DNA from: Chalara sp. BL73
Taxonomy: Eukaryota > Ascomycota > Leotiomycetes > Helotiales
Reading direction: 5' to 3'
Assembly: GCA_918026815.1 (NCBI GenBank)
Contig: CAKJVC010000006.1
Coordinates: 930,001 to 994,000, forward strand
Length of the DNA stretch: 64,000 nt
Below, in pieces: positions 4,461 to 50,960 of the stretch; the stretch's first letter is position 1, and every line of letters starts with the position of its first letter. Below the pieces are notes generated by a model. It worked only from the letters and a program-made list of their open reading frames with translations. It was not told the origin of the DNA and made no database searches. Position numbers and translations under genes: made by a program.

Positions 4461-5675
4461 ATGGATCCCATTCTCATAATTGGCTCTGGCCTCAGTGGTC
4501 TCGCCCTCGCCCAAGGCCTCCACCAGTCATCTATCCCATTCAAGATCTATGAGCGAGAAATACCAGACAATGTTCGCTCGCAAGGCTATCGAATCCGTCT
4601 GCACGGGGAGGGGCTCTCTGCTCTTCGGGCAGTCCTGACGGATGATATCTGGAATCTCTTCGAGGAAACGTGTGCCGCGACGGTACTTGGACCACTTCCG
4701 AATTTCAACGCTGTTAATTGCACGTTTTCGGCAGCCAATTTTGGCGCTCATAATCCACAAAGCAAGGTTGCGCAGAGTGAACAGAAACCTTACACGGTAG
4801 ATCGTGGGATTTTACGAGAGGTGCTTTTAACTGGCTTGGAGAAACATATCGTTTATAACAAGCAGTACTCTCACTACGCGCTCACCGATTCAACCGTGAC
4901 AGCGCATTTTGCAGACGGCACAACAGAAAAAGGCTCCTTACTCGTGGGTGCAGATGGGGTACGCTCAGTGGTCCGCAGACAATATCTTCCCCAGATCAGA
5001 ATCCTGGACACCAAGAGCCGCCCCATATATGGCAAGACACCCCTGACCCCCGCTTTCTTGGAAAGCATATTGCCTAAAGCAATTGAATGCTTGTCTTTTG
5101 TGAAAGACCCGGTGTCGGGGAGCGTGACTTTGATGGAGGTTATTCGGTTTAAGCCAAAAGAGGAACGAAAGGACAAGAGAGATCTACCATATGACTATGT
5201 GTACTGGGTTATGATACAGTCTGGTGGGGGGTCTGCAGCAAATGGTCACCCAATGGAAGATCTCGCCAAGATGGGACCCGTGGAGCTGGCGAAGAGTTGG
5301 GCAGCACATTGGCATCCATCCCTGCGGTCATTGATCGAGTATCAAGATCCCAAACAGACAGGAATGTTTCGCCTGCTCAGCTCTGATCCAGAGTCTATAG
5401 CGATGCCATGGGAATCGAATGGTCGAGTTACCATATTGGGTGATGCTGCACATGCTATGATGCCTTCTACGGCCAGTGGTGCGGTGACTGCACTTAGGGA
5501 TGCCGAACTCCTGACGAAATTGATCGAGGAGCAAGGAATTAGCAAGGAAAGCATTGGAAGGTACGAGGAGGAAATGAGGAAGTATGCTAGCGAAGCTGTA
5601 GCGCTAAGCGCTAAGATAGGGGAGGTAAGTTTTGGGCTGGGGGCTCTGAAAGATTCGGAAGAGGCTGCTTGGTAG
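4461..5675 (+). CDS. FAD-dependent monooxygenase (salicylate hydroxylase / PHBH-like)
   Basis: Single-exon gene, 404 aa. The N-terminal FAD motif GSGLSG lies at residues 8-13, the second motif GADGVRS at 163-169 and the ribityl-binding motif GDAAHAM at 327-333, the normal order and spacing of class A flavoprotein monooxygenases. The enzyme would hydroxylate or epoxidise an aromatic or decarboxylate-hydroxylate a salicylate-like intermediate using NAD(P)H and O2. Its position between an NmrA-like reductase and the exporter points to a tailoring role in the cluster. The start at 4461 puts the Rossmann strand (PILIIGSG) right at the N-terminus. Length is typical for fungal members. Intact; exact substrate cannot be read. 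Confidence 0.92.
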   Translation: MDPILIIGSGLSGLALAQGLHQSSIPFKIYEREIPDNVRSQGYRIRLHGEGLSALRAVLTDDIWNLFEETCAATVLGPLPNFNAVNCTFSAANFGAHNPQSKVAQSEQKPYTVDRGILREVLLTGLEKHIVYNKQYSHYALTDSTVTAHFADGTTEKGSLLVGADGVRSVVRRQYLPQIRILDTKSRPIYGKTPLTPAFLESILPKAIECLSFVKDPVSGSVTLMEVIRFKPKEERKDKRDLPYDYVYWVMIQSGGGSAANGHPMEDLAKMGPVELAKSWAAHWHPSLRSLIEYQDPKQTGMFRLLSSDPESIAMPWESNGRVTILGDAAHAMMPSTASGAVTALRDAELLTKLIEEQGISKESIGRYEEEMRKYASEAVALSAKIGEVSFGLGALKDSEEAAW

Positions 5676-6239
5676 ACAGCTTGTATATTCCTTCGTAGCA
5701 CCTATGTTCTAGTTTGTGATAGAGAAAATTTTGGTTAATCAAGATTGCTGAGGAACAAGCGGATTAAGAGTGGAATAAATAAAGACATTTCTTCCTCAAA
5801 GATCTTCTAAACCCTGTATCTTTCTGCTACTAAACCTTGTTTCGGGAGCTCCTATTTACAGGTTAGCCGATTTTATAGCTTCTTGAAGAATCAACTAGCT
5901 CGCTATGGGTTTGCAATCTCGTCAGGAGTCATTAAACTTGTACTGTTTCAAGAGGGTAGCATGGGTCTTTTAATCTTGAATATCGTAAAAGTATCGTACT
6001 TTGGCTAGATACAGAGCACAAAAGTGCCAGTAGAAAGTTGTCCGCACCAGAATCGGTGACCGGGACAGTGGTACGAAACTATTGATAGTTTTTATAGTTG
6101 CGGAGAGAAGCTTGATGTGATAAGTATATTATTTAACTAGAGTGTTTCAGAAGAAAATGGTGTATGAGGTCTGTATGCAAGATAGCTGGGACAAGGCTCT
6201 AACTGGGCCGCCACATATATGGCAGCAACTCTGGCCAGA
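5676..6239. other. Intergenic, convergent genes
   Basis: About 560 bp between the monooxygenase and the convergent hydrolase. I see no gene, repeat or RNA in it; it should hold both terminators. Confidence 0.6.
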
Positions 6240-7433
6240 CTAAAGCTTATTCCTGGCTAAAAAATTAAACATGGCCTGATAACCGGCAGTGGCGTTGTTG
6301 TGAAGTGTGAAGGCATGGCCAGTGTTCGGCTGGATGACGACGTCAATGACAACGGCATTAGGGTAGGTTTCCGCCAAAGCTTTCGGGTCGGCCTCAGGTA
6401 ACCCGTTGCAATCACCGGCACAGACGTAGAAATCGAACTCGGCTAACATGTATTGTACTGGTGCTTTGAGAGAGGGCCCTTTAAGCCCTAAGAGGTGGTA
6501 GGCCGAGGCGAACTCCCCAATTGGAATTGGTTGCTTGACGGCGTCACTATAGTCGAGCATTTCTTTGGTGAACGCGGTGTTGGGATCACCAGCGAAGAAA
6601 GTGGTTTGGATCCCACTCTTCTGACAAACAACGTAGCCACTCGGGCGATTAAATGGAGGAGAGCCAGCGTACTTGACGGCGAATGCCGCTATTCCAACCT
6701 TTCCAAAATATTTATTGGGAAGAAAGCCTGTGATGATTGCTCCGTCGGTTAGATCACTGTACATGGCAATGAATGCGGAGGTAAGGAGGGATCCGAAGCT
6801 GTGACCTATGTGCACGACCTTGCTTGGTTTTGTTAATGTGTTGAATGCTGGATCGGCGGGCTTTGCTTTCCTTGCGAAGGTATACAGAGTGCTATTGCGC
6901 GCCATCAAGGTCAATTGTCGAAGAATCTCTAGTTCCAGAGGCGCTTGAACCACGTTATATGCATCAGGTTTATCAGATTGGCCGGCGCCCAGACGATCAT
7001 AGGTAAGGATAGAGTATCCTGCCCTTAATGCTGCTTCAACATAGGACTGTTTCTCTCGATCGAGCTCGGGATCCCAATATCTGGAGTCGCAATGCGCTCC
7101 GTGAGTAGCAATCTGTAGGGTATTCTGCTTATTTCTGGAAGAGTTGGGAACACATAGCTGGGCATGGATGATAAAGGTACCAGAGGTAGTGGTATTTTTG
7201 ATTATAGTTTGTGCGCCTGCTGGAGTGCTCCGAGTATCAGAATAGATAGCCCAGGCTGTAGCTTCGATGTCATTGTCTACCCTTGGATATTGATAAACCG
7301 CGCTGCCTGAAGTAACAAAGACTGGAATATCCAGTTGTTTGCAGCTGCCGTGAGACCGCTGGAAGGAAGGGATGCTCACAGCTGAAGTGCCATGGAGAAC
7401 AAGCAGAAGAGCTGTGATGAGAATGGTGGGCAT
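6240..7433 (-). CDS. Secreted alpha/beta hydrolase
   Basis: Single exon, 397 aa. The N-terminus (LITALLLVLHGTSAVS) is a signal peptide with a likely cleavage after about residue 18. The nucleophile elbow is GHSFGS with Ser212. D334 (AEFDFYV) and H373 (NTGHAFTLHN) are suitable acid and base, completing a catalytic triad. THGAHCDSRYW is the oxyanion-side strand, and YDRLGAGQSD is typical of the family. Cys pairs in the cap (VCQKSG, VCAGDCNG) suit an extracellular or secretory-pathway enzyme. Reaction would be ester, lactone or amide hydrolysis. In the cluster it may process or detoxify the exported product, but a pathway-independent role is possible. Intact. Confidence 0.88.
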   Translation of the reverse strand: MPTILITALLLVLHGTSAVSIPSFQRSHGSCKQLDIPVFVTSGSAVYQYPRVDNDIEATAWAIYSDTRSTPAGAQTIIKNTTTSGTFIIHAQLCVPNSSRNKQNTLQIATHGAHCDSRYWDPELDREKQSYVEAALRAGYSILTYDRLGAGQSDKPDAYNVVQAPLELEILRQLTLMARNSTLYTFARKAKPADPAFNTLTKPSKVVHIGHSFGSLLTSAFIAMYSDLTDGAIITGFLPNKYFGKVGIAAFAVKYAGSPPFNRPSGYVVCQKSGIQTTFFAGDPNTAFTKEMLDYSDAVKQPIPIGEFASAYHLLGLKGPSLKAPVQYMLAEFDFYVCAGDCNGLPEADPKALAETYPNAVVIDVVIQPNTGHAFTLHNNATAGYQAMFNFLARNKL

Positions 7434-20009: not shown

Positions 20010-23000
20010 TTAGATTATTCGTGTTTGATGAGAGCAGGATGAACTTGCCATCATAGAAAAATGGGTTGCGTTTTCTATCCGTTCAATCGCAATCTCAATA
20101 CCCGGAAACAACTCTTCCCAGCCGTTTCCAGAAAAGTCTTTGCGTTTCTCAGTCAAAAACCTCATTCCTTTGGTGTCATCCGGGTGTGGAGGAAGCTTTG
20201 GGACACCCTTGCCGTCCATGATGCTATCACAGGCCCAAATAATAGAAACGTGTGGACACTGGCTCTCCAGCAGAGGCTCCGCGTAGTAGTCATGCAAGAC
20301 GTCGATGGTAGCGTTGAAGTGAGGAATAAGCCACTCCGGCTTAGCCGGAGTTGTAGCTCCGCTGCTTTGGCCGAAAAGGTTCAAAGACTCACAGAAATCG
20401 TAAAAGTGCTGAGGCAGCCTGTCCAAGCCACTGGGCGTAGGTGAGTCAATGAGAATAAGGCTGAGGACTTCCTCTCCTTGATCACAGAGAATCTGAGCGG
20501 CGCGGTAGGCTAAGATGCCTCCGGCAGACCATCCCCCAATGTCGTATGGGCCATTTGGTTGACGGCGGCGGATCTCCATCAAATATCCGTTAATCAGCTC
20601 ATCGAGAGGGACGGTTCTCATAAGAAGAGGTTCCTTGAGGTATGGAGAGTTGAGGCCAACGACAGCAATGCTAGAGTCAATCCTAGGTAGAGATGCATAT
20701 GAAGTAGAAGATCCAGAGCCGTCGGGGAAGAGGAATAGAGTCTTTTGGCAATTCTGCGGAAGGCCTTGAAGAATAATCGACGTAGCTTGGCGTATAGTAC
20801 TGTCCATATTTCCAACGTGAATTTCCTGTAGGCCGTCGGATGAGTTGGAGGAGGTCGAAAGAGGAGTAATCTGGATATCATAAGTCCCTTTTTCATTCAC
20901 TATATTCGCATAAGTCAGAGCTGAAGACGATGAATGACAACTAGGGTCTTTCTCAGTATTGGTGATGCTATGGAATGGCGCTCCAGACCGTTCATCGGAC
21001 GTCGAGCCTGCTGTCATGAATTCCTTCAGACTTGCCAAAGTGGGGTAGTCGATAAATAGGGAGTCGCTTTCGATATCGAACCCTAACTCTTCACGGAATC
21101 TGCTAACAATGATCAAAGAAAGGAGCGAATCAATCCCCATGTCAACAAATTCACTGTCGTCTGTTAGATCATGAGGAGCCATGCCACTCTCCTCGGCGAT
21201 AATTTGTAATGCGGGTGCAAAATGGGCAGTGGCTGCTGGAACTGATGACCCCTGAGCGACAGGAATCTCATTAGCGGGGACATTGTCTTTACGGTTCTCG
21301 GGACTCTCTTTTATTTGTTGGATTTCTTCCCCTCGACCGGATGCCAAAAAGTGCTTGAGATCCTTGACCGTGGGGCAGTCGATGAACAGCGACTCGGAGT
21401 CAATATCCATATTCAATTCCTCCCGGAATCTTGCAACGATTGTCAATGACAAGAGCGAATCAATGCCCATATCTGCGAACGCACTCTCATCGGTCAAGTC
21501 GCTGACAGCAACCCCGCTTTCTTGAGATACAATCTGCATTGCTTGCGGGATGATGGATGGCTCTGCCGTGTCAGCCATTTTTGGAGCTGTCCTCTCCATT
21601 GCCTTCGGGGTCAGTAGAGGTTGTGCTTTTGCGCTAACTTGGGATGTGACTGGCGCTGGGGCCGGTGTTTCTTTGGGGGGCTGTGCATTGGCCTTGGGTT
21701 TTTGGCCAGCCTCCACGGACAGGATATAGAACAACACTCTGCGAGGCACAGCTTGTAGCTACAGAATATTAGCCTTCATAAAAGGTGTGATAGAAACAAG
21801 CGCCATTTATAGCTAACTTACTACAATGTCTTTGAATGAAGCAACAATCTTCTCGCCTTCGAAAACAGCAATATCACCGTTCCACATCTTGTTTTTCCCT
21901 TCTTTCATCTGGGTGTAAGTGGTATAGTTTTTGTCGCCAGCAATTTCTTCGAATATTTGGAATGACCCCCAACCATGATTGATGAACACCTCGACATCTA
22001 AGTCGGCCTTGTCGTTGCAGTTCATGGCAAAGCCACCAGATTGAGTGAGACCATCAATAAATGCAGGATGGGTGTGGAAAGTTCCCCCTTTCTTGACCTC
22101 ACCAAAACTAACTTTGCTAGACGCTTCTAATGTATCGCTGTTGAGAATCACCTCGTCGATCGCCTTATAATCCTGGTGGAATTGCGCTAAAGCGTGTATC
22201 ATCTTGTAGACCATTGCTCGATTGAATCGCGCCGCAGTCTCCTCTTGAATGCCATTCCGCAAGGCTTTCATGCGAGATCTGATTAAATTCGATTTGGCAG
22301 CCAATGCTTCGAGTTGCGACCTGTCAGTAAATTGGATGGTGCAGCTAGCATGCTCGACTGTTGGCAAGCCTTTGCTCTATTCCTCTTGGTTAGAAAGCTT
22401 GTATACTGAGAACAATTGAGACTTACATCGAGGGTAAAGAACCGCAATTCTGCAGAATTTTTAGTCCAATCCACATTGGCATGAGCTTGGAGAGGCTGTG
22501 GCCCTTGGGGTTTAGCAATCAAGGCCTTTGAAATAACCATTTTCGAGACATCAACAAGTCTTTCCTGCGTAGTGGGACGATATCTATCGAGAAGATATTT
22601 GCCCATTGTCAGAGCAATATCTGCATAAATTGACTAGAAAATTAAGTCAGCTCATCTTTTTAAGAAGAAAGGTAGAAATAGGTACCGGTGTGGCAAGAGG
22701 AACTCCATTGACCACATGGCCCTGCACAAGAGGGTTAAGGTCAGGTCGCGCAATATCTGATTCTATGATTAGAGTCATATTGTCTCCCTCTGGACTTTCC
22801 CTCAACGTCCTATGCACGGTAGTGCTCTCGAGAGTTGTTGTGTTGTTGATAATGAGTGGTGGGTCTCCTTTCCGCAACGACCAGTCGTTTACGTATTGCA
22901 TCCAGTACTCTTTCAAATCCCAGCTGTAAGCTGGAAGCTGGATGACATTGTGGGAAGCCTTGAAGTCTCTATGATATTCGGCCCAATTGAAATCCATGCC

Positions 23001-26000
23001 AGCATTATAGAGAGCCTTGAGCGCTTCTGTGATAGTCGTCCAGACATCTCTACCCCGTTGAAGGGTTGATAGAACTACCATCTGTGAACCCAATGTGGAC
23101 TTTACCATTCCGGCGACAGCTGGGTGTGGCCCTATCTCAACCGTGAATGTCTGATCAGTGATGATTTTGCTGCTGCGAGCAAACTGGAGTGCTCCAAACA
23201 TATTGACAGGCTCACGGCAATGACGTGAAAGATAGGTTGGTCCGAAAGCGCCTTCCTCCATGATGACATCTCCAAATAGGGGGCAAAGGACAGGAATTGA
23301 CGGCTTATGGAATTTCACCCCCATTGCTATTTGCTGGAAGTCCTGGAGGATGGGTTCAACCTGGGAGGAATGGAATGCATAAGGTATCTTGAGGAGTGTT
23401 GTTTTAAGCCCACTGCTCTCAAGCACCTTCTCCAAGGCTCTGATTTCATCCCTGGCCCCACTAAGAACAGTTTCTGTCGGCGAATTGATGCACGCAATTT
23501 CATAGTTCATGCCCTTGAGAGTTTGCGAGATCGCTTCCACGGAGGCTCTCACGAAAAGCATAGAATGTGTGTTCTGAGTACACCTTTCTTGGAGAAGCTC
23601 TGCTCGTTTCCCAACAAGATAGACGGTGTCTGAATCGGACAGGACGCCAGCAACATTCAATGCAGCATACTCACCGAGGCTATGGCCTACCACTGCATCA
23701 GGAGCGATACCCCATGACCTCCACATCTTGGCTAATGCCACCTGCATGCAGACGCTGGAGAGCTGAACGACAATCGGAGCGAAGTCGGCAATACTATCAT
23801 CATTACCAACCACCTCAAAAATCGGAATAATAGATGGAAAGCCTAGGCTTTGGCCTATTCGATCAAGGCGATGTATGTCGGCACGGAATTGCGAGATTGT
23901 CTGCAAAAGCTGTTTGCCCATTCCTGGGAACTGAGTGCCCTGGCCAGTAAACGTAAAAACAACTTTAGGAGCGGACTTAGCCCTCGTGATGCCCAACTGC
24001 TTATCAATTCCTGTCTTGAGCTGACTTAGGATGCCCTGTATAGATGACCCGCTGATCATAACGCGATGTTGGTGATGAACACGGCGTGCAGTTGTCGTGT
24101 ATGATAGCTGTCCCGCTGAAATCTCCCTGTTACGGTCAAGGAACTGAACCATCGAATTAAGGTTTCCTTTCAACGATGCGGCAGATTTTGCTGAGACTGC
24201 AACAATGTGACAAGACCGAGGATCTTCTTCCTGGTGGCTTGCAATCCTGAGAGGCGCATCCTCAAGAAGGATTGCTGAATTTCCCCCAGCGGCACTGAAA
24301 TTATTCAAAAACACTCTCCGCGTCTGAGATTTAGCATCAGCCCGCTTCCACGACACAGGTTGATCGGCGATCCGAACGTTGCGCTCCTCGAGATCAGTAG
24401 GAAACTTGTGGTTGATCTTGGTCTTTATCCCACAGTGTGGCGGAATAATTTCGTGTTGCATCATAAGCAGCACCTTAACCAGACTTGTCACGCCAGCTGC
24501 AGCTTCGCCGTGCCCAACATTAGCCTTCGCTGCTCCAAGATAAAGAACTTCGTCCTCGCGTCTGTAGCGTCGCCCAGTTTTTGGTGCGAAGGTATTTAGA
24601 ACGCTCTGCATCTCCCCAGCATCGCCTGCTTGAGTTCCAGTTCCATGCATCTCGACGTAGTTGATACTATAGGGGTCGATGCCTGACTCATTGAGAACCT
24701 TCCCAAAAATTTCTGCCTGTGCACCCGCATGAGGGCGTGTTATAGAAACCGCTTCGGCAGAATGATTAGTATGTGCCCCGAGTATCACCGCTTGGATAGG
24801 ATCGTTGTCGGTTAGAGCATCCTCTAGGCGCTTAAGAACTACACTGCCAACTCCCTCCCCTCGGCAGTATCCATCTGCTTCATCATCGAATGTCTTGCAA
24901 TTGCCAGTTCGAGAAAGAAAGTGCCCACGATCCAGACCGGCTGTGAAATCAGGGTTTGTAAGGATATTTGTTCCGCCAGCAATAGCCGTGTCAATATCTC
25001 CTTTCCACAACGAATTACAGGCTATGTTGATAGCGGCAAGACTAGAAGAACACGCAGTATCAACACTGAAACTGGGCCCGCTAAATTTAAAGAAATAATT
25101 CAGCCGACCAGGTATAAAAGCCCGATTTCCTCCGGGAATAAAATAAGTGTCGATGTTTTGCGCGCTATTAGTCTCCATCCAGTCGTTACTGGTCACTCCG
25201 TAGAATATCCCGACCCGGTCCTTTCGTGTCGAAGGGGTAGCATCAGGCACGATACCAGCCTGCTCTATCGCTTCATATCCAGTCATAAGAGCTATTCTCT
25301 GAGCGGGATCAACTTGAGGAGCTTCTCTTGGCGACATGGAGAAAAATCGAGCATCAAAGGCTGCAGGGTTATCCAGCCAGCAACCCCATGGAGTTGCGCT
25401 AGTGTTTTTCTTTTCCCCCGTTGGATCATAATGAGTCTTGACATCCCAATGTAAAGCAGGAACCTTTTTGTGTACATCAAGCCCTTTTTCGAGGATTCGC
25501 CAGAAGCTTTCATTATCAGGAGCATCTGGAAACCGTCCAGACATGCCAATAATGGCAATCTTTGATTTTTTTCCAGTTCCAATATGGCTTTCTTGGAGAA
25601 GACTAGAGATCAATCCATCTTGCGCCGGTGTAGGAGTTGGAAGTCCACTTAGCGACTCTTGTGATATTACCGAGTAGATGGTTTGTTCCGCTGTAGTTCC
25701 ATAGGGGATAACCTTGAAGGTAGGCGAGTTAATGTTTCGTAGGACATTAACGAGTGCCATTTTTATCAACTCCCAATTAATTGGCTCCAGAAGTATCTGC
25801 TCTAGTGAGGCTATCAACAGAGATCGATAGTCCGACGCCTCAACTGGCCGTTCCGAAACGCTTGAAACCACCGGGATTGCGGCCTTGTAACGACCGAAAG
25901 TCTGAACTGAAGTAGATCGTAAGATATCCTTAATGTCCTCTTGGCAAAATAGATGTGGGGCGTGATATGGCGCTTGAATGGAGATATTCTTCAGTTTTAT

Positions 26001-26796
26001 GCCAGAAAATTCTTCTGATGCACGCATCTGCGTAAGGACACTTGGTGGTCCACTTATCGTCAAACCGTGCAATCCATAAGCACTGATATAAGGTTGGCTA
26101 ACAAGGGGAAGTTTCTAACCATAGTTAGTTACAACAGTCTTTTCAAGGTCAGAAGGCTTCTTACACAGTGTTTTCGGAACGCATTTAGAGCATCGATAGC
26201 TGCAGCGCTTGAGGAGCCGCCGACAACCACGGACCACGAAGAAGATCCACTGTTAGAAGACTCGTGCCGATTTCGAACATCGAGGACACATAGCCCAGTC
26301 CGAAATGCTATTAGAACAGTCTGGATGGCGACTGGTAGCAAGTCTGAAACATTTCTACAAGAACTGATGGCAGCAGAAGTTAAGGTCCCGGTGCAAAGAC
26401 CAAGTGCACATGCTTCGCCGGGGAAAGGGTACGAATTGTCGATGTTGTCGTGATCTCTGACCTCATATTAATATTAACCTTTATTACGACCTGGGGAGAA
26501 ACTTACTTGATAAACGAGCCCAATTGGTATATGCAGGTCAATGCCATCTCAAAGGGTATTGGCAAGCTTTCATCGCGGTGGTTCCATGACAGAAGGTGAG
26601 CAATCCCAGAGAACCGAGGAAAGCTTTCTCGTGTACTAAAAGAGAGTTGACCGATTTCAGCCCGTATAGCATAGTCCACTCTTTCGAAGAAATGCCTTAA
26701 GACTGGACCATTGGCTGAATGCAGCAAATCTCGGAGCTTGGAATGGACATCATATGTTTGGTCACCAAACAAATAGATCTTGAATTGTTGAACCAT
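20010..26796 (-). CDS. Non-reducing polyketide synthase SAT-KS-AT-PT-ACP-ACP-TE
   Basis: Six exons (26796-26507, 26456-26165, 26114-22686, 22633-22427, 22376-21822, 21758-20010) give 2173 aa with all junctions in frame. Domains: SAT about 1-370 with GLCTG (Cys118) and YHAPH (His245); KS from about 379 with DTACSSS (Cys549), EMHGTGT (His684) and NVGHGE (His729); AT from about 910 with GHSLG (Ser1006); PT about 1290-1595 with catalytic His1327 (QGHVVNG) and Asp1514 (PAFIDGL); ACP1 Ser1692 and ACP2 Ser1802, both MGIDSLLS; TE with GGWSAGG (Ser2002). All catalytic residues are present. It builds and cyclises an unreduced aromatic polyketide; the TE probably releases it by Claisen cyclisation or hydrolysis. 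The starter unit, chain length and ring pattern cannot be fixed by eye. It is divergent from the SDR. Confidence 0.96.
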
Positions 26797-44029: not shown

Positions 44030-45060
44030 TTACGACCCCTCATCATAGACACATGCTACTCTGGGACTGAGGCTCGGCAAGCTCGCTAGTACAGAGAACT
44101 CAGGAATAGGGACGTGACCAATTGTGGAGATCAATGTGATCTCCTCGATTATGGATCAGAAAGATTATGATGATGCGCATGATTCTGAAGCGAAGGCTCT
44201 ATATAAGTAGATCGCATTCTTAAAATAAGAACTTCGTGCTCAACTCAAATAGTATTCTTATACTTGTTATTGGGATTATATATCTATCTGTGATACACCT
44301 ACTTCTGCTCAGACTACCAACCTGTTGTATGCCTCCTATCCTGTGAAGTCTTCATAGAACCGTAGCACTAGTTATTAGTATAGCAAAATTAACCCTACAG
44401 CTTAGGAAGTTGAGAATCGCTCTCAGGAAGTAGACAGTGTGCCTCGGGTTTAGTATCTCATGTATTTCATTCAACTAGATCAACTATACGATCCATGGGA
44501 AACTTCTCTTGAAATTATTCAACAACCTAGTCTTTGAAATTTCCAAGGTTTGTTCTTGATGCCACAAACTTGAAAGGGCTAACCAAAAGATATATATAGG
44601 CTGAAATAATAACTCGCATTAATAGATTCTAGTAGCCTACTATAAAAAAATCCTATACATCTGGTGACTTTCGCTTCGATTTTAACAAGGAAATTTATCC
44701 TTCTTCAAATTAGTCTTCCGTACCAGGCGCCATTGCTATTCTAGTATAGAAAAGGCCTATCACACTAGGGCAACAAGGGGTATTACCAGTTGTAAGCAAC
44801 CGGACTGAAGTACTACCATAAAAAGTGCTGTTTAAACAGCGTTTATAAATAGTACCATTATTTGGACTCGCTACTCTAATGTATAGGCCCTAAACATCAC
44901 AACGTGGCAACAGTGCTGTATTACGGGAATGCTCAGTAGAAGGTACTTCTCCCTATAGTACCCGTGGATTCCTTGTATTCGTGGTTACTATACAGCATAG
45001 ATCGCTAAGTAATGTCTCTCCGTACAAGGGGCCTCCTAGCCTATAAATCGATGCTATGAC
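44030..45060 (+). mobile_element. LTR-retrotransposon remnant (RIP-degraded)
   Basis: Begins TGTTACGACCCC and contains a TATA-like CTCTATATAAGTAG at about 44,200, then a stretch similar to 50,830-50,940 (AACTCAAATAGTATTCTTA, then ACTTGTTATTG). The following DNA to about 45,060 reads as a stop-filled frame with many TAG/TAA, as expected for a degraded gag region. Exact LTR boundaries could not be fixed. Confidence 0.45.
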
Positions 45061-45083: not shown

Positions 45084-45779
45084 TTAACCTAAATCTGCGT
45101 TAAGTTCAACGCCAGCCATCGTCCAAATCTTCTGCAGTGGAGCCCTGTCCAACACAATGCCCTCACAGTGATGGATATGGTCTATTCCATTAGATCTCCT
45201 TTCGACTGTCACCCCGGTGAACTTAGACCGGTAGTGCTTGCGCCATGTATACATGCAGTGCATAATATGCCACTCTTGTGTCGTGTAGAAGACACCGCCA
45301 ACTTCCGCTAGCAAGCCCATCTCTTCACGAGTGAGACGAGTCGTGCCGTTGAGCTCAGCCCAATATGGCCATTCACCTCCCGCAAGTGGGCCTTGCTTAT
45401 CGAAATCGTCCGAAAGCTCCATGTCCAGGCACTGAGGCGGTAGCCATCCAAGTGCTAGTGGCGTGAATATGCAACCCCTAGAGAGCGCTTCCGCAACGGT
45501 AGTCCCACCACAAGAGCACGACACAGGCTTGGGAAACTCAGATGTAGTTAATTTCCCGAGGTTGCAAAGTCCCCAGAACGCAAACCCGATAAGTATACTC
45601 TTCACGAGGAGGACTAAGTAATGACCGCTTTTGAATTTTGCCTTAGAATTGTGTGTAACATCTAGTTCACTGTCTAGACTTTGACCGTCATCGCTGGACT
45701 CATGCAAGAGGCTGTAGTTGGCTTTGCCGCCATGGGTATCCGTCTTATTCGACGAAGTCATCTGCTTAAACAATTTCAT
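45084..45779 (-). CDS. UstYa-like (DUF3328) oxidase, RiPP locus
   Basis: 231 aa from MKLFKQMTSS (45779). A tiny upstream exon ending at a GTAAGT near 45,829 is possible, because TTATGTAG lies just before this start. A cytosolic N-terminus is followed by one transmembrane segment at about 53-75 (YLVLLVKSILIGFAFWGL). The lumenal part has CSCGGTTVAEALSRGCIF, GWLPPQCLDMELSDDFD, and the paired signature HIMHC (His171/His174/Cys175) and HIHHC (His201/His204/Cys205). Paired HxxHC motifs define the UstYa family, copper-dependent-type oxidases that cyclise, hydroxylate or chlorinate peptides in ustiloxin, asperipin, phomopsin, victorin and cyclochlorotine pathways. It sits 1.3 kb from, and divergent to, the repeat precursor. 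Intact. Confidence 0.87.
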   Translation of the reverse strand: MKLFKQMTSSNKTDTHGGKANYSLLHESSDDGQSLDSELDVTHNSKAKFKSGHYLVLLVKSILIGFAFWGLCNLGKLTTSEFPKPVSCSCGGTTVAEALSRGCIFTPLALGWLPPQCLDMELSDDFDKQGPLAGGEWPYWAELNGTTRLTREEMGLLAEVGGVFYTTQEWHIMHCMYTWRKHYRSKFTGVTVERRSNGIDHIHHCEGIVLDRAPLQKIWTMAGVELNADLG

Positions 45780-47106
45780 TCTACATAAATGAGTTTTGAA
45801 AATAAAGGTCAATGCAATGACTTACACATTCATCGTCACTTGTTTCGTTGCGCTAAAGAAAGGTGTATCGGATTTGGGCTATGTGTGAGAAAGCTCTCTG
45901 AACTGACTTGGTTAAGATAAAAGAAAGAAAGGACAAAGTTAAGGGATAAAAATGGATCAGCTCCCTTCTATCACAAACATTGATGGCGCTCCGGGGTCGG
46001 CAACGGACCGTGTAGGCCGAGCTGAATGAATGCGATCCACAATGAGCTTCCTTGTGCCACCCGAAAATGTGCATTTTAGGCTGATAGCTTTCTATGTAAG
46101 GTATCGGAGTACGGGTAGCATTTTACCGAGTCTCTGGCGTTGCCTCAGTTTGAGGAAGATGCAGCACATTATGCATGTTTCTGCCATTTGGGAACTTTCC
46201 TCACTCCTTTGGGCGAAAGCTCGGGCCGCACTCAGTGTGAATAATCCCACCGCTTACACGTTATGAATATATTACGATTTATGTTCTATAGGTATTGTAA
46301 ACCGGCCGTAGATTACCTAAATCCTTCAGCCCATGGCGTCTGATAATGTCGACTTATAGGTTATTGGTATGTTTAAATGCTGGAAAATTGACGGCTATAA
46401 CGAATCACTAGTACTGCACACTAGTAATAAGATACTCCTAACATGCACTACATGGCGCCATAAAGTGAACCGCCACTATATAGGATATACTAAAGCAGAA
46501 GCAAATAATTTTACTTTAGAGTAATGTAGTCCTTGAAGTTGAGGTGTAACGATAGAGATATATAGATGGGACACGTAACTCTAATAAGTTTAAATCGTCC
46601 CGAAGTAAACCAAGCGGTTAATTTAATAGCATTTGTTAAATATATATGGTATTCCACCTATAAATTCTGTTAGAACGATTGATGCGTCCTTGGATATGGG
46701 CGTCTTTTCAGGTACGAGGACTTTACAACTTGATATTATGCAGTAATCCGCAGCCAGTTTCGACATTTCATTCATTTTTTGCGTCACTAGCAATGCCACC
46801 GCCATAAAGCAACACTAACATAACCCTGCATCAGCTCATGCAGTGCTTCGGTTCCTGATAACGCTTGTGACCTCTGAACTAAAAGCCAGAGATGTGAGTA
46901 CTAGCTCATGGGTCCATGCAAATTCTCAATTGAGCCTTTGAAGCACGTCTCGCATACTCTCTACACTTCCGAGAACGTAGGGTATATAACACCTATCGAC
47001 GGGTCCGGGTTTTCAATCATAAAACATTCCTCCAGTACCACCTAACGCCTTAGAGATAAACCACTTTCCAATCTATCAATCTCAACCCATTTTTCACCTT
47101 TGCAAG
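45780..47106. promoter_or_regulatory. Divergent region UstYa-1 / RiPP precursor
   Basis: About 1.3 kb. A TATA-like GGTATATAAC lies at 46981-46990, about 115 bp before the precursor start, and a pyrimidine-rich leader precedes the ATG. Small open frames here (e.g. 46623-46805) have no support. Confidence 0.5.
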
Positions 47107-47484
47107 ATGCGTTTCTATACCAATGCTGTCCTCGCCGCTGTTCTCTTCGGCTTGGCAAGCTCTGCGCCAGCACCTATTCCAAACGACGCCCTAGTATTCC
47201 CTGTCCGCTCATACACCGACGATAAACGCGACGCTGCTCTGAATGCAGTGAAGCCAGATTCTGAGAAGCGCAGTGCAGCTTTGAATGCAGTGAAGCCAGA
47301 CTCTGAGAAGCGCGGTGCGGCTTTGAATGCAGTCAAGCCAGATTCCGAGAAGCGCGGAGCCGCCCTTAACGCTGTGAAGCCGGACTCCGAGAAACGCGGA
47401 GCAGCACTAAATGCTGTTAAGCCAGACTCGGAAAAGCGTGGTGCTGCTTTGAATGCAGTCAAGCCCGACTCCGAGAATCTTTAG
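47107..47484 (+). CDS. Repeat-containing secreted RiPP precursor (dikaritin-type), Kex2-processed
   Basis: 125 aa, single exon. Residues 1-19 (MRFYTNAVLAAVLFGLASS) are a signal peptide ending before APAPIPN. A leader to residue 41 ends DDKR. Then come six 14-residue repeats, [D/S/G]AALNAVKPDSEKR, each set off by Lys-Arg for Kex2 cleavage; the last reads ...PDSENL and lacks the dibasic site. After Kex2 and carboxypeptidase trimming each repeat would give a 12-mer. The design matches UstA/PhomA-type precursors, and UstYa-like genes lie on both sides. Codon choice differs between repeats while the peptide is constant, so the peptide is under selection. No aromatic residue occurs in the repeat, unlike ustiloxin or phomopsin cores. 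A mating-pheromone or other Kex2-excised peptide is the alternative. Confidence 0.88.
   Translation: MRFYTNAVLAAVLFGLASSAPAPIPNDALVFPVRSYTDDKRDAALNAVKPDSEKRSAALNAVKPDSEKRGAALNAVKPDSEKRGAALNAVKPDSEKRGAALNAVKPDSEKRGAALNAVKPDSENL
47230..47481 (+). repeat. Six 42-bp coding tandem repeats
   Basis: Copies start at 47230, 47272, 47314, 47356, 47398 and 47440. Synonymous sites vary freely (Leu as CTG, TTG, CTT, CTA; Val as GTG, GTC, GTT; Ser as TCT, TCC, TCG), but residues 2-12 are identical in all copies. Confidence 0.95.
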
Positions 47485-47736
47485 GAGTAAGCTGAGCCCA
47501 CAGGATATCCTCGCCAAACGATGGACGTAGGGAGTGGGGGGATATTAAGGGTTCGCGAGTGGACTAGAGGCTCGGAGGTGGCGCATCGTCTCCACAGACA
47601 GATTTCAAATGCAATTGAGTGCTAGGCCAAATTTCTGTATGTGATGGACAGTCTTTACTTTGAAACTGGTGGAGGTTTAGCAACATAATGAGAACATGCC
47701 AGCTCAGCCAACCCATAGTGTTCCCTTCCTCTTACT

Positions 47737-48231
47737 CTAATACGTTTCTAAATGCCTTTGCACAACATAGTTAAGTTGTGATACATTTCCTTTATCCGGA
47801 TTTATTGAAAAGAGTATGCTGCTTTGACTCTCAGCGCCACTTGAGCCGGGACTTCTTCCCCTTCTAACAACTTGCCATCGTTGGTCAATAGAAACAGCCT
47901 TTCCAATGTCTTTTCTTTTTAAGAAGTATCGACCTCCATTGTATTGAAGGATGGTATCAATATCAGATGCAAGATTGTGCAGGGGTCTAGATCTAAAAAT
48001 AGATAGACTCTGACGTCGCTTTAGGTTCGGGCCTTCTCTCTTGAAGGCTTTCCTTGGATGCTGCTATTGAATATCTTCGCAATACGCCTAATCCGGCACC
48101 CATGTCAAGGTCGCATTAACTTTATCCAGAGAGCTAGTCTTACTGCAGAGCTCCGTAAAGTGATATTTGTTCAAAGCGCTGTTTGCGCTTGAGGGGCTGA
48201 AATGCAACACTAAATCCGAATCTACCACCAT
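47737..48231 (-). pseudogene. Unrecognised reading frame with two in-frame TAG, inside RiPP locus
   Basis: From ATG at 48231 the frame reads MVVDSDLVLHFSPSS to TLTWVPD, then TAG at 48090-48088, seven codons, TAG at 48066-48064, and then 108 further codons to a stop at 47739-47737. The composition is protein-like throughout: KREGPNLKRRQSLSIF, ASDIDTILQYNGGRYFLKRK, SQSSILFSINPDKG. Both stops are TAG, as if from CAG (Gln) by C-to-T change, and the frame is unchanged across them, which argues for a recently inactivated gene. A very short intron (GTGCCG to CAATAG, under 45 nt) removing both stops is possible. I recognise no family. Confidence 0.45.
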
Positions 48232-49035
48232 TTTGTATTACCCCTTTTCCACTTATGATTATAAGATGTACTCTATGTAGTCTTGTATAGAGAGATCGCC
48301 AAGTGCGTCACTTACCCATCGTTATAAGAATAAGTATGCCTGTCAATTTCGCTGTTGAATAAAAGCGTCACTGTCAAGGTATACCATTGGGCGGCACGTA
48401 CAACAAGAAGAGTTGTTGAAGCTCTTTAGCCCCACCATTTTAACTAGTTTGTGAAGTTACACCGATGTCAAACTGTTGTAAAGCCAAGCTCTATTAAACC
48501 TTACGCCATCGCGGTAGGCGATTATGCCACAAGATCCCGGTTGCTTAGCTGCATGCGGAGTCTCGGATGCAGGGTCTTTCTTATACCGAAAAATTGTCTA
48601 CTGACCAAGGGTGCTTACCTCGACCTACTTTGGTAAGTTTATTGGCTGATTATATACGCAAATAATAAGACATCATTTAAGGCGAAGATCTGGCTGATTT
48701 GGGTCAACTGTGATGCAGTGCCAATGGTAGGGTCACTTGGCAATCCCATGGCTTGTTCGGTAACGGTCATTTCCAGGAATTAGCATGATGAGTATTGGCA
48801 TAGCTGAAGTTTTCAATAAAGTGGTGAATACCCTTCTCCGTAGCATAGCATATACGATGGGTTATGCGTCGAGAAGGTGCCGTGGATGCGCTAAAGTCCG
48901 TGGCAGTGCAGCCTCAAGTAAGACAATGCACTAGAAAGTAGGCTCTCCGCTATCGGTACCTCGATGCTGCTTGCTCCTCAGCTTCAGACAGTGTCGATAC
49001 TTTCTTCATCTCTCTCTTTATTTCTCTCTACTTTC
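48232..49035. other. Intergenic, nothing recognised
   Basis: About 800 bp upstream of the second UstYa-like gene; no supported gene or repeat. Confidence 0.5.
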
Positions 49036-50019
49036 ATGCCTCAACTCATCGAGGGTCACAATACTATAGGTTTCAAAAGAGGAAGCGTCAATACTGACAG
49101 ATATATCTCAGACTTTCAATCAACTGAGTATATTCCATTGCCTGCCAAAGACTCCTCTACTCTCGTAGATGCCACTTTCTTGGACAGGTCTAGGGAAGTC
49201 CCCAGAATATTGCTCTTCGGAAATTTGTAGACTTAAAGGGAGAGATGGAGAACGTGTATCTAGGGTAAAATTTCCACCACTTCAGTTTGTAGAGGTATCT
49301 AATTTGCGTTCCTAATCAGTGAACACGATAATGCTTCAGTTGAGAAGCTTCTACCAAGTGAGAGCGCACATGAAGACTACAAGCAAGCTTTGAGTGAACT
49401 TTACAAGCCTGAGAGAAAGCAAAAGATCCGACGGTATCTAAGGATAGTGAGGGATATGGTGCTTTATGCACTTGCACTCTGGGGTTTGTTCGGTATCTTT
49501 AAAGAAGCTGTTCACAAGCTTCCGCAAGCCATTCATCATGAGCACCAGCATCTCGAACACCAACACAATATTCCAGAAAGTCGCCGCTCTTGTGCTTGCG
49601 GAAATTCAACAGCTGAAGCAATCTCACTTGGTTGCGTCTACGACTCCTTATCTCCTGCATGGATGCAACCATACTGTCAAGACGCTGAACTCACCGCTGA
49701 ATTCGAAACACTGGGAGACGGACCCAATGGGACATGGACCTACTATGCGGATCGAAATCATACTCAAGAGCTGAGTATGTCCGAGGTCATGTCTATGGCA
49801 GATGATCCAGATTCCCGTTTCCATGTGACCTGGGAGTGGCATGTTGTACACTGCTACATGTATTGGATCAAGCAATTCCGCTCGCAGACGAGTGGCGTTG
49901 TTGTGGAAGCGAGATATGATACAGAAGCTCATATTAGGCATTGCGCGGAGGTGTTCCAGAACCCGGTATGGGGGACTTCGTCTGGTGTTGTGCTTAATGC
50001 TGATATTGATGATCCTTAG
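49036..50019 (+). CDS. UstYa-like (DUF3328) oxidase, second copy, RiPP locus
   Basis: Exon 1 starts MPQLIEGHNTIGFKRGS and contains EYIPLPAKDSS, like the YxPLP N-terminal motif of the family. Exon 2 starts at 49320 after CTAAT...CCTAATCAG and continues EHDNASVEKLLPSE into the main frame. The donor is uncertain: GTAGAC at 49227 or GTCTAG near 49187 both restore the frame. One transmembrane segment (VLYALALWGLFGIF) is followed by SCACGNSTAEAISLGCVY, AWMQPYCQDAEL, and the paired motifs HVVHC and HIRHC. The C-terminus GVVLNADID mirrors GVELNADLG of the first copy, so both belong to one subfamily. It transcribes away from the precursor and would oxidise the core peptides in the secretory pathway. 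Confidence 0.85.
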
Positions 50020-50738: not shown

Positions 50739-50960
50739 GTGTTATGTAATCCGGTTAGGAAGCTACGGGATCCAGGTGTGAAAGCCTCCTGACGAAGTAA
50801 TAGGAGCCCCCAGCACTATAACTAGCTACGAAGGTTCTATATAGGTAGCTAGTACTTTTTTTAGGACAGCGGCTTCGTGGCTAACTCAAACAGTACTTCC
50901 ATACTTGTTATTGTGATATTGCTAGTATACGTGATATACCTTCTTCTTACTAGACTTCCT
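50739..50960 (+). mobile_element. LTR-like sequence, diverged copy of the one near 44,030-44,320
   Basis: Shares, in the same order and orientation, CGAAGGTTCTATATAGGTAG, then AACTCAAACAGTACTTCCA with ACTTGTTATTG, then GTGATATACCTTCTTCTTAC, with CGAAGGCTCTATATAAGTAG and following sequence near 44,200-44,310. It starts around TGTTATGTAATCC. Probably a solo LTR of the same family; boundaries are approximate. Confidence 0.45.

Follow-up and report, generated by a model that had tools for sequence, protein, structure and literature searches.

A Kex2-type repeat precursor between two HxxHC proteins outside the curated UstYa model in Chalara sp. BL73

Ustiloxin, phomopsin and asperipin-2a are dikaritins, ribosomally synthesized and post-translationally modified peptides (RiPPs) of fungi. 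Their precursors carry a signal peptide and tandem cores separated by KR sites, and neighbouring genes encode proteins that combine a single membrane segment with a pair of HxxHC motifs. An older definition of the dikaritin cluster lists five genes, including a tyrosinase, a methyltransferase, and a peptidase or transporter. Here, we describe a locus of similar layout in the ascomycete Chalara sp. BL73. The window, the whole stretch of 64,000 nucleotides that was analysed, covers positions 930,001 to 994,000 of contig CAKJVC010000006.1 (C3:930001-994000; C-numbers denote contigs of the source genome, and L-numbers genome stretches with local coordinates). A repeat-precursor gene in the window is flanked by genes of two HxxHC proteins, W1 and W2, which fall outside the Pfam model of UstYa (PF11807, the DUF3328 model).

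The rings of ustiloxin, phomopsin and asperipin-2a form on tyrosine, according to a survey of Kex2-processed repeat proteins (KEPs; PMC7329392). The same survey defines a KEP by a signal peptide and at least three tandem repeats of at least eight residues between KR, KK, RK or RR sites. It reports a mean of 5.25 KEPs per Ascomycota strain, a mean DUF3328-KEP distance of 3.09 genes, and no DUF3328 gene within 15 genes of 6120 of the 7878 KEPs. Tyrosine occurs in 65.6% of the repeats next to DUF3328 genes and in 38.2% of the rest, and the motif of the cyclisation factor might differ between Ascomycota and Basidiomycota. Surveys count a KEP as likely modified when a DUF3328 match is nearby (PMC7329392; PMC9632046), and two HxxHC motifs in a tailoring protein are a dikaritin criterion (PMC12048977). 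In agaricomycetes, KEP peptides have been detected in linear and minimally modified form (PMC9769878). The DUF3328 enzyme CctR needs copper, O2, electrons, dimer formation and its HxxHC residues, which ties the HxxHC(x)nHxxHC pattern to copper chemistry (PMC12435403).

The precursor gene and its flanking proteins

The features of the locus are as follows, with positions counted from the first letter of the window and the evidence in brackets.

45084..45779, minus strand: gene of W1, 231 residues, divergent HxxHC family, head-to-head upstream of the precursor gene (open reading frame, family search, alignment)
45165..45179, minus strand: second copper-type motif of W1, HIHHC, residues 201-205 (alignment, motif scan)
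45255..45269, minus strand: first copper-type motif of W1, HIMHC, residues 171-175 (alignment, motif scan)
45564..45620, minus strand: membrane segment of W1, residues 54-72 (19-residue hydropathy 2.03; covered by a helix, residues 48-79, of a low-confidence model)
45780..47106, no strand: intergenic region of 1.33 kb between the divergently transcribed W1 and precursor genes, possibly their shared promoter region (coordinates)
47107..47484, plus strand: precursor gene, a KEP of 125 residues with signal peptide, leader, six 14-residue units and stop (open reading frame, repeat analysis)
47107..47166, plus strand: signal peptide, about residues 1-20, MRFYTNAVLAAVLFGLASSA (hydrophobicity rule; cleavage site by eye)
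47167..47229, plus strand: leader PAPIPNDALVFPVRSYTDDKR, 21 residues, ending in the first KR site (sequence)
47230..47481, plus strand: six units, DAALNAVKPDSEKR, SAALNAVKPDSEKR, three times GAALNAVKPDSEKR, and GAALNAVKPDSENL (residues 2-12 identical in all six)
49036..49230, plus strand: candidate first exon of W2, ATG at 49036, splice sites provisional (inferred)
49303..50019, plus strand: open frame of W2, 238 codons and stop, divergent HxxHC protein (family search, alignment)
49840..49854, plus strand: first motif of W2, HVVHC (sequence, motif scan)
49930..49944, plus strand: second motif of W2, HIRHC (sequence, motif scan)

The precursor begins with MRFYTNAVLAAVLFGLASSAPA. This N-terminus is hydrophobic and has an apparent cleavage site between A-S-S-A and P, and by rule and by eye it is a signal peptide of the kind that the KEP definition names. 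The unit consensus is [D/S/G]AALNAVKPDSE-KR, with D, S, G, G, G and G as the first residues of units 1-6. KR closes units 1-5, and NL followed by the stop closes unit 6. Six 14-residue units, five of them with a KR end, place the protein among the KEPs under the published repeat rule. Tandem Repeats Finder detects a period of 42 bp with 5.8 copies (score 281). A preliminary description of this DNA had reported a 125-residue protein with a signal peptide and six 14-residue repeats, the first five ending in KR, and its coordinates and count are right. Our KEP scan looks for a signal-like N-terminus and at least three similar segments between dibasic sites. The precursor is its single match in the window, whereas 2 Mb of first-order shuffles of five genome stretches gave no match. 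The core contains no Tyr, Trp, Phe, His, Cys or Met. The computed linear [M+H]+ values are 1171.5953 for GAALNAVKPDSE, 1201.6059 for SAALNAVKPDSE, 1229.6008 for DAALNAVKPDSE, and 1398.7223 for the C-terminal GAALNAVKPDSENL.

The core peptide of the precursor is under selection. The six units were compared in 15 pairs by Nei-Gojobori counting. Whole units differ at 115 of 155.8 synonymous sites (pS 0.74) and at 25 of 474.2 non-synonymous sites (0.053). Within codons 2-12 (AALNAVKPDSE), the differences are 94 of 124.2 synonymous (pS 0.757) and 3 of 370.8 non-synonymous sites (pN 0.008). The three non-synonymous counts are artefacts of leucine codon paths, and the residues are identical in six of six units. 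Since eleven residues stay identical over near-saturated silent sites, it is the peptide, not the DNA, that has been kept.

A search of the genome (58.7 Mb, 199 contigs) found no paralogue of the precursor; apart from the precursor itself, it gave only a 13.6-bit match (E 3.4). All six Pfam matches of the precursor lie under their cut-offs (best Gp6_C-I, 26.8 bits against 27) and were taken as low-complexity noise. Pheromone cores often contain Trp or Cys. An ascomycete alpha-type pheromone precursor was considered and rejected, as the Pfam matches to E 10 include no pheromone family and the core has neither Trp nor Cys. Neither the repeat string nor its near variants turned up in a literature search.

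W1 and W2 share 34% identity, and each has an HxxHC pair 30 residues apart and a single hydrophobic segment. The motif scan and hydropathy bear out the earlier observation that a protein with one membrane segment and paired HxxHC motifs stands on either side of the precursor. Both proteins thus have the two HxxHC motifs of the dikaritin criterion. W2 needs an upstream exon or start, because its first in-frame ATG, at 49456, falls within the membrane segment. A PF11807 search of the genome yields 89 matches, which do not include W1 or W2; by the Pfam test, therefore, neither is a canonical UstYa protein. The Pfam matches of W2 to Reov_VP3_GTase (13.6 bits) and zf-UBR (8.6 bits) are under the cut-offs and were rejected as noise. 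The observation of a repeat precursor between two such proteins is confirmed, and the locus is read as a probable KEP-type RiPP cassette whose flanking proteins fall outside the curated UstYa model. HxxHC proteins as neighbours of KEPs are in themselves already familiar.

The divergent HxxHC family and its neighbours

Genome searches with W1, W2 and three relatives (E <= 0.001) found at least 16 places in at least 11 loci. The 13 places with a single open frame holding both motifs were aligned, and the invariance of the motifs is partly an effect of this choice. The other three are C3:338k, whose two motifs lie in another frame beyond a probable intron; a family copy on C139 (L062:3962-4496) with only the second HxxHC visible, probably spliced or decayed; and C112, which was not read. 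The motif spacing is 29-32 residues in all 13 aligned members. Each has one N-terminal hydrophobic segment, with a best 19-residue value of 1.72-2.36 in 12 members and 1.49 in one, and none has a second segment above 1.6. The invariant columns include C90, G92, A98, C103 and C117 of W1. A conserved CG-EA-GC-W-P-C block before the motifs is not among the conserved columns of the canonical UstYa set, six UstYa frames of the same genome, one of which shows a single HxxHC in frame. Downstream of their second motif, the six canonical frames share an invariant C or W that is missing from the W1/W2 family. None of the 13 reaches the PF11807 cut-off, with two touching the model at E <= 1, and none matches NCBIfam. 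The lone match of a profile search of the PDB, sc-CC-6-95 (8qag; E 0.021), is weak and was taken as noise.

InterPro may hold the family as PTHR35896 / IPR053008, a PANTHER model named after phomopsin biosynthesis, and the Cyathus olla genome paper reportedly uses the phrase "phomopsin biosynthesis cluster protein". If so, it is already catalogued, although it may still be uncharacterised. Among the top-ranked literature matches, titles and abstract openings describe no HxxHC family other than DUF3328 beside KEPs.

To this family, precursors recur as neighbours. The KEP scan covered the window, 13 stretches (128 kb) over nine other family loci, and nine other short loci, under a rule set written after two exploratory scans; C139 (L062) entered only under this rule set. 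A precursor is present at four of the ten family loci read (window, C97, C129:1004k and C3:338k), or three of nine without the window. The scan found none in the 88.6 kb of other sequence, composed of eight loci with canonical UstYa matches, each about 3.5 kb long (two pairs of them with identical scores), L023 and the rest of the window. At 5.25 KEPs per strain, 0.0115 would be expected in the 128 kb against three seen (P 2.5e-7 for at least three), and P rises to 0.0015 if a genome has 100 KEPs; these values assume random placement and take the rate from a different pipeline. The three further precursors are listed here.

C97:25409-25984 (L040:5409-5984), plus strand: precursor with seven 20-residue units TNIYPSVSFLGDPEAEKVKR and a shorter last one (KEP scan)
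C129:1002546-1002962 (L047:4546-4962), minus strand: Val-Gly-rich precursor, DVGEVGDVGAVGEVGQVGYKR, facing a divergent HxxHC gene head-to-head (KEP scan)
C3:339737-339967 (L048:6737-6967), plus strand: precursor with five AEPFEVI units (KEP scan)

At three of the four loci, precursor and enzyme gene stand head-to-head, with 1.33 kb (window), 0.94 kb (C129) and 1.28 kb (C3:338k) between first Met codons. On C97, the precursor lies 0.91 kb upstream of the enzyme gene on the same strand. Silent change without residue change is found in two of the three other arrays, with no non-synonymous difference at 973 sites on C97 (first seven units) and at 202 sites at C3:338k (five units). The C129 array has a pN of 0.14, its fourth compared unit being out of register. 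The window, C129:1004k and C3:338k contain a precursor and the divergent family only, and are the minimal form of the cassette. The EG/AE spacers of the C3:338k precursor resemble Ste13-type trimming sites, and the HxxHC gene opposite it is probably spliced.

The sister locus, C97:25.4-30.2 kb, resembles the window in having a KEP and two proteins of the same clade. It differs in its 20-residue units, which contain tyrosine, in the same-strand layout, in canonical UstYa matches within the locus, and in GNAT and MFS genes 5-8 kb on. With its precursor, two divergent members and several canonical UstYa matches, it is a fuller RiPP-like cluster than that of the window. W1 and W2 group with the C97 pair in a single clade (support 100/99, and 96/94 in a second tree), whose inner order the two trees do not fix. 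We rejected duplication of the cassette as a unit with C97, for which one-to-one pairs would be expected. The best BLAST hits (W1 with C97_29k, W2 with C97_27k) speak for it and the trees against it: the first joins W1 with C97_27k (90/82), and the second leaves the order open. Near the C97 locus, two frame pairs about 11.5 kb apart share the same initial residues (L038:2696/L039:4129 and L038:7457/L039:9057), and are likely a segmental duplication.

Five of the 11 loci (C97, C121, C84, C129:1865k and C132) have PF11807 matches no farther than 10 kb from the family, and HxxHC frames were found at four of these five. C165 and C139 have neither a precursor in the KEP scan nor a PF11807 match. 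A stretch of about 15 kb at C132:243-258k (L042, L043) has four genes of the divergent HxxHC family as well as a canonical UstYa match. PF11807 matches with identical scores on C41/C107 and C62/C181 may be recent duplications or overlapping assembly pieces. The genome has one match to the kexin P-domain.

The preliminary description had seen no tyrosinase near the precursor, and this is upheld by the genome search, in which none of 39 tyrosinase (PF00264) matches is on C3. None is on C97, C121, C84, C129, C132, C165 or C112 either, and on C139 the distance exceeds 300 kb. The search is able to see tyrosinase clusters, because canonical UstYa matches have tyrosinase matches within a few kb at C184:102-117k and C82:1275.9-1279.7k; judged by gene content, these two are candidate ustiloxin/phomopsin-type clusters.

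Interpretation of the locus

We consider it probable, though well short of certain, that the locus is a minimal RiPP cassette, in which Kex2 processes the precursor and two enzymes resemble copper oxidases. The precursor, whose signal peptide is seen in the sequence, would enter the secretory pathway. Kexin would cut after each KR, as the pattern of sites suggests, and release six peptides of 12 to 14 residues, four of them beginning with GAALNAVKPDSE. W1 and W2 would be membrane-anchored lumenal enzymes, and the HxxHC pair in each may form a two-copper centre like that of CctR. Using O2 and electrons, they could oxidise C-H bonds of the peptide to a hydroxylated or cross-linked product. Because the nearest sister locus, C97, also has two such proteins, W1 and W2 may act together. 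That the peptide of the window is modified at all is what we infer. As its core lacks tyrosine, a ustiloxin-type ring is excluded. Because Trp, Phe, His, Cys and Met are absent as well, oxidation is most likely directed at an aliphatic position or at Lys, Pro or Asn rather than at a phenol. The likeliest outcome is hydroxylation, or a link via aliphatic or Lys/Asn side chains.

Several observations weigh against the cassette reading. The scan found no precursor at six of the ten family loci (C121, C84, C129:1865k, C132, C165 and C139). The divergent HxxHC gene on C165 lies about 4 kb from a non-ribosomal peptide synthetase (NRPS) module (AMP-binding, PP-binding; L049:1-1275, 5572-6576), a setting reminiscent of cyclochlorotine, an NRPS product modified by DUF3328 enzymes (PMC12435403). 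W1 scores 13.8 bits against PF11807 (cut-off 25), and W2, taken from its first in-frame ATG, has no match. The preliminary term UstYa-like therefore stands for motif and topology and fails on the Pfam score, and the outright assignment to UstYa/DUF3328 is not sustained for W1, W2 or their aligned relatives. A structure model of W1, from an alignment of W1 and W2 only, is unusable (pLDDT 45.6, pTM 0.34); helices in it are predicted to span the membrane segment and both motifs. The HxxHC motif could be convergent with that of UstYa. A core without tyrosine runs counter to the published tyrosine frequency beside DUF3328 genes. It is not unique, since about one third of DUF3328-adjacent repeats lack tyrosine in PMC7329392.

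It is also possible that the precursor yields unmodified linear secreted peptides, acting as signal, effector or surface peptides, and that the HxxHC neighbours act elsewhere. The many KEPs far from any DUF3328 gene, the linear and minimally modified peptides of agaricomycetes, the core without tyrosine, the six loci without a KEP and the member near an NRPS module are all consistent with this. We nevertheless regard it as rather unlikely, because KEPs are paired with the family at three further loci, far above the random-placement expectation, because three of the four precursors are head-to-head with the enzyme gene, and because canonical UstYa matches lie near the family at 5 of 11 loci. 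The recurrence at the three further loci also counts in favour of the preliminary interpretation, which is partly supported. What does not hold is its appeal to the dikaritin-type chemistry of ustiloxin, phomopsin and asperipin, whose rings form on the tyrosine that this core lacks (PMC7329392).

W1 and W2 share with UstYa the motif, a similar spacing of about 30 residues, and the topology of one N-terminal membrane segment. Together with the neighbourhood, this would suit an ordinary dikaritin locus, in which W1 and W2 are diverged UstYa/DUF3328 proteins and the product is of a known dikaritin type. The family profile matches the six canonical UstYa frames with a probability of 66.8 over 49 columns, and the unmasked score of 39.4 exceeds the best of 60 column shuffles (20.7). 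Once the H/H/C letters are masked, however, the score drops to 15.4, against a shuffle maximum of 17.6, a further point against the cassette reading. Because the similarity vanishes on masking, the motif letters are what relates W1 and W2 to UstYa, and descent from UstYa, though conceivable, finds no support beyond them. The CG-EA-GC-W-P-C block, the failure of all 13 aligned members to reach the Pfam cut-off, and the core without tyrosine also speak against a known dikaritin. So does the contig without a tyrosinase match, whereas the UstYa clusters on C184 and C82 have one nearby. An ordinary dikaritin locus is, in our judgement, distinctly improbable. Least credible of all is a relic or silent locus with open but unused genes. 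A short dispersed repeat to the left of the cassette and a stretch 71% similar to it on the right would fit such a relic, but the frames are open, and the core peptide is identical against near-saturated synonymous change.

Returning to the cassette reading, we tentatively propose a wider role for the W1/W2 family, possible but open to considerable doubt. It would form a second HxxHC family of copper enzymes that escapes the Pfam DUF3328 model, and be a dedicated partner of many fungal precursors, including those without tyrosine. A share of the KEPs recorded without DUF3328 would then be modified by it through aliphatic C-H oxidation or cross-linking, not phenol chemistry. The family is a candidate second cyclisation factor, here in an ascomycete. 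If it is a second set of partners, DUF3328-based surveys undercount modified peptides, and a rescan of the precursors filed as unaccompanied provides a simple test. With its tyrosine-free core next to two copper-motif proteins, the locus also offers a compact system in which the action of such proteins on aliphatic residues can be studied.

Surroundings of the cassette

The gene content of the genome, with a non-reducing polyketide synthase (PKS), Zn2Cys6 and AflR-type regulators, kexin, and UstYa genes, points to a filamentous ascomycete. A domain search of the 11 longer open reading frames at 40.6-63.6k identified a La domain only. The right-hand frames tested contain no methyltransferase or peptidase match, which would set the locus apart from the dikaritins. 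Searches of the window for tRNA and Rfam families gave no matches.

A separate polyketide cluster occupies positions 1-37000 of the window. Its core is a non-reducing PKS at 20010-26114 on the minus strand with SAT, KS, AT, PS-DH, two ACP and TE domains. The companions are an O-methyltransferase, AflR-type and Fungal_trans_2 regulators, MFS, an FSH1 hydrolase, and FAD-binding, short-chain dehydrogenase and NmrA proteins. The MFS fragment at 30.1k and the O-methyltransferase and MFS genes at 8.8-15.7k were assigned to this cluster. We rejected the cluster (0-37 kb) as part of the precursor pathway, having found nothing in favour.

To the right of the cassette, positions 50873-50959 are 71% similar to a repeat on its left and absent from the genome places listed for that repeat. 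The left-hand repeat, at 44191-44330, is short and dispersed, with at least 41 genome places at 76-100% identity, a count resting on 40 of 124 candidates scored.

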